A stretch of 64,000 bases of DNA, taken from positions 769,518 to 833,517 of the forward strand of contig LR026961.1 of assembly GCA_900498135.1 (NCBI GenBank), given 5' to 3'. Below, in pieces: positions 1,190-49,766 of this stretch (position 1 is its first letter; each line of letters opens with the position of its first letter). The DNA comes from an uncultured Desulfatiglans sp. Lineage in GTDB: Bacteria; Desulfobacterota; DSM-4660; Desulfatiglandales; Desulfatiglandaceae. Below the pieces are notes generated by a model. That model was not told the DNA's origin. It did not search any database and saw only the letters and a program-made list of their open reading frames with translations. The translations under genes and the position numbers were made by a program.

Positions 1190-1663
1190 CAGACCCTCCT
1201 TTTCTCATTGGAATTGAACAGCATGCCAATCCTGCCACAGGTAAACGATTGCCCGTGAAGTGCGTCTTTCGATACGAAAATGCATCGTAACCGGCCCGGG
1301 CATCGGGAAACCGGGCTTTGCGGGCAGGCGGCCCTTGGGAACCCGCCAGGGCGAATGGATAAAACAGCGCCGGTGTCGGGCAGAGCGGGAACCGTTCCAG
1401 AGCACCAGCTCCAAGGAGATAACCCGTTTGAAGAAAAAAGCATTTTTGGATTATCGTTTTTTATATTAACCCAAGGCTGCTCTCAGCACAAAGCTTTCCT
1501 GAACAGGCCTCGAAGAGCGTTCATCAGAAACGTCGATTTCAGGCCGGGGCTTCCCTCGCCTGATCTTTTTTTCTGGATTTATTGACGGACTTCGGCATAA
1601 TGGATCGCTTACGATGAAAGGATCCACCCTGTGAACTGGGACCCCTGCAGCGAGGTCGTCTCC

Positions 1664-1700
1664 ATCCGGAAATGATTTTCCGGTAGAACTCAGTTTCCAC
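1664..1700 (+). repeat. Dispersed repeat A, left-end fragment
   Basis: Begins ATCCGGAAATGATTTTCCGG and continues through TAGAACTCAGTTTCC. It matches the left end of the composite element at 40065-40280, with a few changes. Only the left ~37 bp are present. Confidence 0.7.
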
Positions 1701-14472: not shown

Positions 14473-14625
14473 TTCGAAAAATATCCGCACAAATGCTTGA
14501 TTTCCTTGATATTAGCTAAACCGGGACCCGCCCCGCAGGGGCGGGACTGAGCACGCGGAGCGTGTAAAGAAAAATCCTCATTTCCGGATTGGAAACTGAG
14601 CCCTACCGCGAAATCATTTCCGGAT
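14473..14625 (-). repeat. Dispersed composite repeat (A module plus truncated B) upstream of the atp operon
   Basis: On the minus strand the terminus ATCCGGAAATG (14625-14615) opens the A module. Its two hairpins are CCCGCCCC-gca-GGGGCGGG (14527-14545) and CACGC-gga-GCGTG (14552-14564). About 35 bp of the B module (TATCAAGGAAATCAAGC...) then follow before homology stops. The element sits 50-200 bp upstream of atpD, inside the region where the atp promoter should lie. Confidence 0.75.
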
Positions 14626-14661
14626 GGATGCTAAAAAGCATACGACTGCACCGCCGCCAGG

Positions 14662-22796: not shown

Positions 22797-23381
22797 AAAT
22801 CCTCCTTCATTATTTCTTTATCACATCGGGAACCCACCAGAACAAAAAGCAAACCTCTTTAGAGGACCCTCGCAGGCAGCGCTCCGCTTCTTCATGCAAA
22901 TCATCCAAAACAGCCGAAGCTTACGGCCCCTCGTCCTGCCCACTCCGATCTAATCGCGGCCCATCCTCAAACGATTTCCCGGCACCACCCGGTTTCCAAT
23001 CCGGAAATGAGGACTTTCTCTCCACGCACTGCGGACGCCCCCTCCCATCGCTTTACGGCAAGCGCCGTCTTGCGCAGGTCTTGTATCGACAGGACCAAAA
23101 AACGCGTCTACAGTATGAACGGCGACCGCCAAAACCTGCGCCTCTTCATCCGGCAGCCCCAGTGTAATGCCTTTTCGAAGGCAAAATCAAGCGCACCTTC
23201 ACATCTAGAAGCAAAAAAGCGTCTCCGGACACACCTGCCCCTGATCGATGCGGGCACCTGGAAGGCCGGCAATCCGCGGGGGCTCTTTTTCCTGTTCGAA
23301 ATCAAAACTCGGGAAAGTGGCCTCTTTCTGGTGTCTGTCCACTCCAGGCCCCTCGATCATTGAGGCCGTAGGGGCTTCTCC
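22797..23381. other. Intergenic region with repeat fragment
   Basis: About 585 bp. Apart from an A-repeat fragment (22988-23016), no conserved gene was recognised. An open frame at 23007-23363 lacks a ribosome site and recognisable composition and was not called. Confidence 0.4.
22988..23016 (+). repeat. Dispersed repeat A, core fragment
   Basis: Contains ACCCGGTTTCCAATCCGG followed by AAATGAGGA, identical to the linker of the tandem array at 33619-34008. Confidence 0.65.
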
Positions 23382-29145: not shown

Positions 29146-29356
29146 CGGTTCGACCTTCCTGGAAATTCAGACTCTGCTCAGAGATGGTGCCATCTGAGGA
29201 TCTCAGCGTCAACCTGAACGCTCGTTCCTTCAACGATCCATAAGCATCCGCTCCGCGCACCCGTCCGAGTCCCTTGGGATTGGCGACGCCGGAACCCGAC
29301 CCAACGGGGAGGGACTCAACGCGCGAAACATATAGATCAACCGGGACGCCCCGTCG

Positions 29357-33593: not shown

Positions 33594-33618
33594 GGGAACC
33601 CGCGGGGCCCGGTGTGGA

Positions 33619-34008
33619 CCTATATCAAGGAAATCAAGCGTTTGCGCGGAGGCGACCTGAAGGTCGCCGCACAAGCAAACGTGCAGATTGACGCCGAGAT
33701 TGGCCAAAAAGACCATTTCCAGCAAGACCCGGTTTCCAATCCGGAAATGAGGATTTTTGGCCAATATCAAGAAAATCAAGCGTTTGCGCGGAGGCGACCT
33801 GCGGGTCGCCACACAAGCAAACGTGCAGATTGACGCCGAGATTGGCCAAAAAGACCATTTCCAGCAAAACCCGGTTTCCAATCCGGAAATGAGGATTTTT
33901 GGCCAATATCAAGGAAATCAAGCGTTTGCGCGGAGGCGACCTGCGGGTCGCCGCACAAGCAAACGTGCAGATTGACGCCGAGATTGGCCAAAAAGACCAT
34001 TTCCGGAT
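33619..34008 (+). repeat. Tandem array, three 142-bp units (module B plus A linker)
   Basis: Units start at 33619, 33761 and 33903 with a period of exactly 142 bp; the third ends at the element terminus CATTTCCGGAT (33998-34008). Each unit holds the B module. TTGGCCAAT pairs with ATTGGCCAA, GCGTTTGC pairs with GCAAACG, and the top hairpin is GGCGACC-tgnn-GGTCGCC. After B comes the linker ACCCGGTTTCCAATCCGG. Because 142 is not a multiple of 3, the open frames through it are not a conserved protein. Confidence 0.85.
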
Positions 34009-34043
34009 GGAAACCAGCTAGATGATTGCTTCAAGGTTAGAGG

Positions 34044-35462: not shown

Positions 35463-35524
35463 TGCCTTTGATATCGTGCCAAAACTCATTCCCGGTGGAG
35501 TTCAAACCTATTCTCACTGAATGT

Positions 35525-35575
35525 CCACCCGGAAATGATTTCCCGGTACAACCCAGTTTCCAACCCGGAAATTCG
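35525..35575 (+). repeat. Dispersed repeat A, left-end fragment
   Basis: CCCGGAAATGATTTCCCGG is followed by ACCCAGTTTCCAACCCGG, homologous to 40065-40115. It lies between the activator stop and the zinc-ribbon gene. Confidence 0.7.
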
Positions 35576-35589
35576 GAGCTTTCAGGATC

Positions 35590-35808: not shown

Positions 35809-36221
35809 TACCCGTGTTTCGGGCATGATCCATTACAACGAGCAGCAACCACCCGCCGACGCCCCCTGCATTCGGGTCCATCGCCTTTCGCTTTTTTCCG
35901 AAAATAGGGAATCGATCTCAGTGCTTGTCCGGTAATCATCCACCCGGTGGACAAAAAAGCAAACCCGGAACAGAAATTTCCAACGGCCGGGGTGCGTGTA
36001 GTCTCTCCCTCCTTTCAATCAGCTCAACCCAGGAACAAATGGTTCCTTTTGACCTGAAAAGAGAAGCCATGGTTCCGTTTTTCACCCGTTCCTTTCGATG
36101 TCCCAACAGGGTCTTCGGGACTTTTCCCGGCAGTAAGACTTTACAGATGCACCGGGCTTATGCATGATGGCAGGGCTCGCGTTCGCCGGCAGGTAAACCC
36201 ATGACTGCGCAGCGGGTTTCG
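35809..36221. other. Intergenic region
   Basis: About 410 bp with no recognisable gene. A small hairpin AGGAAC-AAATG-GTTCCT followed by TTTT at 36031-36051 could be a weak terminator for the upstream zinc-ribbon gene. Confidence 0.35.
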
Positions 36222-36434
36222 ATCCAGAAATGGTATTTTGGTCCGATCCTGCGTTGATCTGCACGTTCGCTTGTGCGGTGACCTGCCGGTCGCTTCCGCG
36301 GGAACATTTAATTCTCTAGAGATCCCAAAACCGGGTCCCGCCCCGCAGGGGTTGGACTGAGCATGCGAAGCGTGTGAAGAAAAACCCACATTTGCGGATT
36401 GGAAACTCGGTTTTACCGGAAACTCATTTCCGAA
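36222..36434 (-). repeat. Complete composite repeat element (A+B), MITE-like
   Basis: 213 bp bounded by ATCCAGAAATG and CATTTCCGAAG, near-inverted repeats. Inside are the B module (degenerate hairpin around 36270-36300) and the A hairpins CCCGCCCC/GGGGTTGG (36337-36355) and CATGC/GCGTG (36362-36374). Orientation is opposite to the copy at 40065. It ends only 12 bp before the ribosome site of the DUF481 gene. Confidence 0.75.
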
Positions 36435-36464
36435 GAATCTACTATAAGGAGGAGAAAACTAGCC

Positions 36465-37490: not shown

Positions 37491-37550
37491 AAGGACTACT
37501 CAGGCGGCGGAACCGGCAGGGCTGCGGTGCGGGAACGATTTTTGGCCCGC

Positions 37551-37606
37551 CGCACAGACAAACGCGCAGATGAGCGCCTAAACTGGCAGGAAAACTCTTT
37601 CCGGAA
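37551..37606 (+). repeat. Decayed fragment of the B module
   Basis: GCCGCACAGACAAACGCGCAGA and the end CTTTCCGGAA match the right half of B with many substitutions. It lies just before the IS5 element. Confidence 0.5.
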
Positions 37607-37616
37607 GCAGAGCAGG

Positions 37617-38547
37617 CTAAGTGCTTATCCGTAAATAAAATGTACTTTTCTCACGATTTTTGCTATGCTGGCAGCCATCCTGAACCGTTGCGATGGAGGC
37701 CCTATGACAAAAATTCAATCGTGGGAAGTATCCGATGCCTTTTGGGAAAGGGTTAAACCCCTTGTGCCGGCGCCAGAGCGGGATCCGCAAAAATCTTACA
37801 AGCGCAAAATCGGCGGCGGAAGAAAACCGATGCCGCCCCGGCAGATTTTTGAAGCCATCATGTACGTGCTCAGAACCGGCTGTCAGTGGAAAGCGCTTCC
37901 AAAGGAACGTTTTGGAAGCCCCAGCGCGATCCACACCCATTTCATGCATTGGATGCGCGCAGGCTTTTTTGTCGCCTTGTGGAGAGCCGGGCTTGCCGAA
38001 TACGATGAAATGGAGGGCATCGCTTGGAGCTGGCAAAGCATCGACGGGGCGATGGTCAAGGCTCCCCTGCCGCTCGAAGCGTTTGGTCGGAATCCGACCG
38101 ACAGGGGAAAAAAATGGAACCAAGCGCCATCTGCTGGTGGACGGTCGTGGTGTCCCGCTGTCGCTCGTCGTGACCGGAGCAAACCGGCATGATGTGACCC
38201 AATTGGAACTGGTGCTGGAAGAAATCGTCATCGACCGTCCCACCGATATCCAGCAGAATCTGTGTGCGGATAAAGCCTATGATGGCAAACCGGCATTGAG
38301 GACCATCGTTGCCCACGGCTATATTCCCCACGTGAAAACACGGGGGAGGAGCGCCAGGAAAAAAAGCGCAATCCCGCATGGAAAGCCAGAAGATGGATCG
38401 TTGAAGTGAGTCATTCATGGTTCAATCGCTTCCGCAAACTCCTGGTTCGCTATGAGAAGCTCAGCGATACCTATATGGCTTTGTTGCGTATGGCTGCTGC
38501 TATCATCGCCTACCGAAAAGTGGGCGTTATTTACGGGTAAGATCTAA
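37617..38547 (+). mobile_element. IS5-family insertion sequence with CTAA target duplication
   Basis: The element proper is 37621-38543 (923 bp). Ends GTGCTTATCCGTAAATAA and, in reverse complement, ATCTTACCCGTAAATAA share CTTAyCCGTAAATAA. CTAA at 37617-37620 and 38544-38547 fits the YTAR-type 4-bp duplication of IS5. The right-hand copy contains the TAG stop (complement CTA) of the neighbouring DUF401 gene. One disrupted transposase gene fills it. Confidence 0.75.
37704..38540 (+). pseudogene. IS5-family transposase, split over three frames
   Basis: The start MTKIQSWEVSDAFWERVKPL with GGAGG upstream, then the DDE-domain text IDGAMVKAPL, is in frame 1. After a run of seven A (near 38108-38114) the homologous text KRHLLVDGRGVPLSLV continues one base on. 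Near 38341-38365 a G-run breaks the frame again, and the C-terminal VSHSWFNRFRKLLVRYEKLSD is in a third frame. The first break could be a programmed frameshift as in IS427-group elements; the second cannot be explained that way. Most likely inactive. Confidence 0.75.
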
Positions 38548-39845: not shown

Positions 39846-40064
39846 GCAAACCCCACCGGCGTCCCTATAAGGAATTCACCGACCACGCATCCGGGATGCC
39901 TCCATGAAGCCCGGCTGAAATTATCGACCGGTCCGGTGCACCCCACAAACTGGAAAACGGATCTTGAAGACCCACCCGATCGTCCAGCGAAAAGGCCTGC
40001 TCCGCAACATAGAGCGAACCGCCGAAACGGGCTGCCCACCCGGCTGCCGTTTATTTAGATTTCT
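39846..40064. other. Intergenic region
   Basis: No gene or clear promoter recognised in this 219-bp stretch, which leads into the composite repeat. Confidence 0.35.
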
Positions 40065-40280
40065 ATCCGGAAATGATTTCCCGGTAGAACCCAGTTTCCA
40101 ATCCGGAAATGAGGATTTTTCTTCACACCCTTCGGGTGCTCAGTCCCACCGCTTCGCGGCGGGTCCCGGTTTGGCCAATATCAAGGAAATCAAGCGGTTG
40201 CGCGGAGGCGATCTGCAGGTCGCCGCACAAGCAAACGTGCATATTGATGCCGAGATTAGCCGAAAAGACCATTTCCGGAT
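40065..40280 (+). repeat. Complete composite repeat element (A+B), best-preserved copy
   Basis: 216 bp bounded by perfect 11-bp inverted repeats ATCCGGAAATG (40065-40075) and CATTTCCGGAT (40270-40280). Module A carries hairpins CACCC-ttc-GGGTG (40126-40138) and CCCACCGC-ttc-GCGGCGGG (40145-40163). Module B starts TTGGCCAATATCAAGG and contains GGCGATC-tgca-GGTCGCC. It ends 19 bp from the stop of the glutaredoxin gene. Confidence 0.85.
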
Positions 40281-40298
40281 TGGAAACGATTTAGGCAA

Positions 40299-49654: not shown

Positions 49655-49664
49655 GGCGTGTCTC

Positions 49665-49704
49665 ATCCAGAGATGATTTTCCCGTGGAACCCGGTTTCCA
49701 ACCC
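49665..49704 (+). repeat. Dispersed repeat A, left-end fragment
   Basis: ATCCAGAGATGATTTTCCCG is followed by AACCCGGTTTCCAACCCG. It matches the left end of the composite element with a few changes. Confidence 0.65.
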
Positions 49705-49766
49705 GAAGGAGCGGGACAACATCTCCGGCAGGACTTCGATCCCCCGATCTCAGGTCAGAACGGCCG

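Follow-up and report, generated by a model that had tools for sequence, protein, structure and literature searches.

A probable ISNCY-mobilised MITE of the Desulfobacterota whose body appears to be kept as a single-strand hairpin

The stretch of DNA analysed here (‘the window’; 64,000 nucleotides, positions 769518–833517) is part of the 4.80 Mb, single-contig genome of an uncultured Desulfatiglans sp. and carries, at 40058–40287 on the plus strand, a full-length copy of a composite repeat: a left unit, one A module and a B hairpin, with ends GATTTCTATCC...GGATTGGAAAC. Working along this copy from its left end, we see the left unit (HP1, ~36 bp; 40058–40093, +), a short hairpin in relatives, followed by the B hairpin (HP2, ~140 nt without A; 40094–40287, +), which is defined by its fold and by covariation. 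The 5′ arm of B starts at 40094, is interrupted by the A module (52 bp, two small hairpins; 40121–40172, +) and resumes at 40173, the right end of the hairpin lying at 40287. The initial annotation had placed this copy at 40065–40280 and described a perfect 11-bp inverted repeat at its termini; the repeat is present (ATCCGGAAATG/CATTTCCGGAT), with the true ends ~7 bp outside it on either side, such that the copy extends a few bases past those coordinates. Immediately beyond the ends are the two copies of the 6-bp target-site duplication (TSD) seen family-wide, TATTTA to the left (40052–40057) and GATTTA to the right (40288–40293), which match at five of six bases.

All nine intergenic loci that the initial annotation had named carry the element or pieces thereof. 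Besides the copy just described, these comprise a degraded full composite copy (36216–36441, −); three tandem B hairpins with a 142-bp period, the right end of the last being intact (33613–34014, +); a truncated composite copy retaining the left unit, A and part of B (14481–14629, −); solo left units at 1659–1699 (+) and 35523–35583 (+); a degraded left unit with an A remnant (22961–23017, +); a degraded left unit (49663–49710, +); and a B relic (37527–37607, +). A B relic at 29179–29285 (−) was absent from that list. The relic at 37527–37607 is adjoined by an IS4/IS5-type insertion sequence (37620–38545; DUF4096 and DDE_Tnp_1, with inverted repeats of ~16 bp), which is missing from the orthologous place in the congener G001, where several similar copies are found elsewhere.

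Genome-wide, the end motif TTTCCATCCGGAAATG occurs 705 times with up to two mismatches (352 + 353), against five times (4 + 1) for a reversed control, which excludes chance as the source of the family. Within 1.664 Mb of sampled stretches plus the window there are 171 B modules in 162 clusters, covering ~1.7% of the sampled DNA; the copy number extrapolates to ~490–500 per genome. The element is short, non-coding and high in copy number, without a conserved reading frame, and is bounded by terminal inverted repeats (GTNTCCATCC...GGATGGAAAC). It exists in two main forms of 172 and 224 bp, lengths that include TCC at the left end through GGAAA at the right, and is ordered as a left unit of ~36 bp, zero to three A modules of 52 bp and a B hairpin of ~140 nt, the arms of which start GTTTCCAATCCGGAAATGAG and finish CATTTCCGGATGGAAAC, with A located within the 5′ arm of this hairpin. 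Among the other arrangements are left units on their own, B hairpins in tandem, and nested copies. Separately, the same copies of the element lie at both ends of contig G000:C1 (1–320 and 4791196–4791614), and a 50-mer from the start of this contig recurs near 4.79 Mb; the two ends probably overlap by ~10 kb, which would make the contig an untrimmed circular chromosome.

Target-site duplications of 6 bp at (C)TARYTA(G) are a property of the family as a whole: 16 of 54 full-length copies have flanks that match at five or six of six bases, compared to a mean of 1.5 and a maximum of 7 in shuffles (n = 5000), with the consensus target, TARYTA, frequently found inside CTARYTAG. Scanning 1.92 Mb for exact pairs of ends and TSDs returned 79 spaced by less than 400 bp (a figure that counts some near-palindromic copies on both strands) and none spaced by 400–5000 bp. 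In other genera and orders the TSD is exact in 16 of 49 cases (shuffles: mean 1.0, maximum 5). An 8-bp TSD, an idea taken from the C...G flanks, was rejected, as the outer base differs in several copies while the inner six match. At the site in G001 that is orthologous to 40058–40287 there is no element, the two flanks being joined by a few bases; the site has diverged and the target hexamer is unrecognisable there. By its target duplications, its ends and its absence from the orthologous site in the congener, the repeat is a genuine MITE; the MITE-like, composite reading given in the initial annotation was right, and is strengthened by the TSDs, by that absence and by a candidate partner transposase.

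Scanning 1.7–1.9 Mb for end motifs with exact TSDs, to lengths of 5–6 kb, revealed no autonomous element. The candidate partner came to light afterwards, when transposases of the ISNCY family were looked for; that family was picked for the duplications of 6–7 bp made by its ISDol1 group. Three copies of a transposase matching NF033593 (ISNCY) are present in this genome (455 aa; 446 bits, cut-off 325; DDE_Tnp_1 domain), all of which reside in 1.7-kb elements with ends GTTTCCATCCGGAAAA...TTTCCGGATRGAAAC; more precisely, these start GTTTCCATCCGGAAAA and have TTTCCGGATAGAAAC or TTTCCGGATGGAAAC as their right end. We take these insertion sequences to belong, possibly, to the ISDol1 group. One of the three has TAAATA on either side and the flanks of the other two mismatch. 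Amongst the unmatched flanks of the G000 copies L332 and L333, one copy has TAGGTA / TACCTA, each the reverse complement of the other, a pattern expected of IS copies that have recombined or of an inversion between them. The same kind of insertion sequence, with TAATTA on both flanks, is found in genus g16 and in Desulfobacteraceae bacterium Eth-SRB2, where it starts GTGTGCATCC or GTGTCCATCC, sequences that resemble the MITE ends of these genera. Insertion sequence and MITE have in common just ~16 bp at their ends, and we noted no internal similarity. On the basis of these shared termini, the ISNCY insertion sequence is likely to be the autonomous partner of the MITE. Saying this, many element-rich genomes are without a full-length match to NF033593, so that lost or different transposases must be invoked there.

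The initial annotation had proposed that a covariance model be taken across relatives; the model built here (R1) finds the element widely in the Desulfobacterota. At least 38 of 46 family genomes contain it, one of these with at least 129 scored copies, and so do at least 26 of a phylum-wide sample of 148 genomes, all of these being minimum figures from a limited number of candidates scored per genome. A degenerate core pattern matches at least 118 stretches in named genomes, belonging to Desulfobacterales, Desulfuromonadales (including Geobacter), Syntrophus and Syntrophobacteraceae, and most of the core-pattern loci tested gave a full-length match to R1. These relatives would also place the window's host in the Desulfobacterota. 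The form particular to this genome, searched as an exact pattern, had no match in named genomes. Among viruses one contig matched, and among the plasmids searched none did. Rfam returned nothing relevant, either for the window at the gathering threshold or for seven loci with homologues at E ≤ 1. Five of the core-pattern matches (L119, L123, L130, L138 and L185) carry record titles of Chloroflexi bacterium C2.bin.19, and represent either misbinned contigs or transfer outside the phylum. Two variants of the hairpin were also seen. The first is a second deep subfamily (L304, L307, L309, L108, L106 and L302; element at ~1501–1677) with the core AACCGCAGGAATAC...TTCGAGGATTAAAATTTGAG, in which the stem sequence is quite different and the fold unchanged; in the second (L153, L155, L136, L157 and L160), additional hairpins are inserted at various points of B, in apical or internal loops, and its fold is otherwise intact.

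To compare B between genera, 45 copies from many Desulfobacterota genera were aligned with MAFFT. In this alignment 91.7% of cells pair and double-sided changes are seen in 39 of 50 B pairs (281 cells, against 85 when shuffled), giving a covariation score of 0.427 where slid controls reach at most 0.135. Parsimony on the tree indicates 94 Watson–Crick-to-Watson–Crick changes in 36 pair columns, with G–U entered 87 times and A–C 30; on internal branches alone the excess is weaker (19 versus 7, p = 0.03). Expressed as a ratio, G–U to A–C stands at 169:37 in B between genera and at 117:8 in its core. The plus strand folds more stably in 45 of 45 copies, also when DNA parameters are used, a count that is not independent owing to shared ancestry, in contrast to the event counts, which largely are. 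The internal loops and mismatches of B are among its most conserved positions across the phylum. For left units of the Desulfuromonadales type, the hairpins have a mean of −14.8 kcal/mol, compared to −5.0 kcal/mol for shuffled sequence.

These data bear directly on whether the structure is selected at the level of double-stranded DNA, either as a cruciform, an option entertained by the initial annotation, or as a protein-binding palindrome. The body is indeed near-palindromic with long inverted arms, and the terminal repeats must be recognised as DNA by a transposase. A cruciform, however, needs both strands to fold, and would thus be expected to show G–T and A–C equally; the strand-specific signal in B disfavours it, as does the greater stability of the plus strand, and we judge selection on DNA-level structure to be unlikely. 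The excess of G–U over A–C instead argues that it is the fold of one strand that is selected, and the body of the element is best read as a conserved single-strand (RNA or ssDNA) hairpin.

The copies within this genome give a different picture. The A-module stem variants that were quoted in the initial annotation, in support of a selected structure, are real: pair 4 of the first hairpin is C–G 25 times and G–C 22 times, and pair 7 of the second hairpin, which is linked to it, is G–C 26 times and C–G 22 times. With one swapped pair per hairpin, and with the swaps linked between hairpins, these stems provide no argument for structural selection, and look like two inherited, linked subfamilies (founding variants) with few recombinants. 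For B, across 113 ungapped own-genome copies, paired sites diverge by 8.34% and unpaired sites by 8.39%, and G–T is seen 136 times versus 117 for A–C, i.e. there is no strand-specific pairing; single copies therefore show no constraint. Double changes number 34 here against 11 by shuffling, an excess that can stem from subfamilies. The step from compensatory change to selected structure thus holds for the B hairpin between genera, to which the initial annotation had drawn no special attention, but neither for the A stems nor for own-genome copies.

Might there then be no selection on the fold at all, compensation having arisen through hairpin-templated (quasi-palindrome) correction or as inherited differences between subfamilies? 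Such an explanation accounts for the A variants, as two linked subfamilies, and possibly for the own-genome double changes in B. Templated correction would, however, erase internal loops and mismatches, yet these are strongly conserved across the phylum; nor does it yield an excess of G–U over A–C. We consider it improbable as a result.

A further possibility is a host-functional RNA, each copy serving as a regulatory / processing signal of the adjacent gene, with its fold kept by selection at that locus. It would be in keeping with the strong phylum-wide covariation, conserved internal loops and G–U bias of B, and with the intergenic location of 153 of the 162 clusters (gene context being taken from a simple codon-usage script, the coding fraction of which, 0.70, indicates that genes are under-called). 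The unconstrained divergence of own-genome copies, with its near-equal G–T and A–C, speaks against it, as do three aspects of their placement: orientation is unbiased with respect to co-directional neighbouring genes (32 same, 41 opposite), there are relatively more clusters in divergent than in convergent gaps, and the best window copy is missing at the orthologous site of the congener. Host function at every locus is not supported, and we hold out little prospect for this explanation. That the repeat is left over from a coding gene, or from a transposase 3′ end, is more improbable by far: B is open in one frame in this genome, but relatives have in-frame stops and frameshifts, conservation is of pairs and not codons, and four peptides tried gave no Pfam match; a protein reading of B or A was rejected accordingly.

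We believe that the element is probably an ISNCY-mobilised MITE with a body kept as a single-strand hairpin by selection on transposing lineages. The ISNCY-family DDE transposase of the 1.7-kb insertion sequence, which has the same terminal repeats (GTTTCCATCCGGAAA), would most likely act in trans, and most likely moves the MITE, inserting it into TARYTA sites with duplication of 6 bp. Across the Desulfobacterota it is base pairs, more than sequence, that are conserved, in the pattern of a single folded strand. Since individual copies decay without sign of constraint, the target of selection appears to be the transposing lineages; those lineages competent for transposition would be maintained, with the copies left behind decaying unconstrained. 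The fold of the plus strand, as RNA or ssDNA, may thereby favour the spread of the element or its toleration. Rather more tentatively, the hairpin could be a structured RNA / ssDNA aid to the element's own mobility, recognised by the transposase or by a host factor during transposition; if true, the MITE would be a structure-assisted parasite, more than a pair of ends.

MITEs are usually regarded as requiring their ends only. Here an interior is kept as a folded strand while its copies rot, and the maintenance of that fold across the phylum points to a function in the life of the element. ISNCY, a poorly characterised transposase family, would gain a non-autonomous partner. There is also a caution, in that compensatory changes among repeat copies are on their own no evidence of a host RNA, and can mark subfamilies within one genome. 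For annotation, the ~500 copies account for ~1.7% of the genome, and R1 also marks elements in many Desulfobacterales and Desulfuromonadales.

A literature search found neither a report of an ISNCY transposase connected with a MITE nor one of a covarying MITE that spans a phylum, which constitutes weak negative evidence. The closest likeness in layout is to the BOX element of Streptococcus pneumoniae, in which boxB modules, varying in number and folding largely by themselves, lie between end modules (PMC3049150); our element likewise has end modules with variable tandem central modules (zero to three A). BOX is folded as RNA, and ISSpn2, with similar terminal repeats, has been proposed as its mobiliser (PMC3049150). 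The present element differs in its ISNCY-family partner, in its clear 6-bp TSDs and in the phylum-wide conservation and strong covariation of its body. The Chunjie MITE of Geobacter uraniireducens (Chen et al. 2008) is 178–235 bp long, with 38 copies and with terminal and direct repeats (PMC10969869). Compared by description only, its host comes from a group in which our element is frequent, and the two could be of the same family; neither a partner transposase nor covariation nor a spread across the phylum figures in the account of Chunjie in PMC10969869. Geobacter metallireducens and G. bemidjiensis possess multicopy nucleotide sequences, several of which have been treated as putative regulatory elements (PMC2700814, PMC2996986) and which, again by description, resemble our MITE in being palindromic, intergenic and found in related hosts.

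The ERIC, Correia and Nezha MITEs are, like the present element, near-palindromic, high in copy number and intergenic. ERIC and Correia duplicate TA at their target, in place of the 6-bp TARYTA seen here. A resident IS partner has been proposed for Nezha (PMC3049150), and the partner family of our MITE differs from those of all three. REP/BIME sequences, associated with RAYT, have neither TSDs nor terminal inverted repeats, unlike the MITE, which has both. In the ‘master copies’ of SINEs we find the same logic of a selected lineage, although the ends, TSDs and partner here are of the DNA-transposon type. It is with the ISNCY insertion sequences (NCBIfam NF033593) that the MITE shares its terminal repeats, its 6-bp duplication and its TA-rich palindromic target; these being, in contrast to the MITE, autonomous and 1.7 kb in length.
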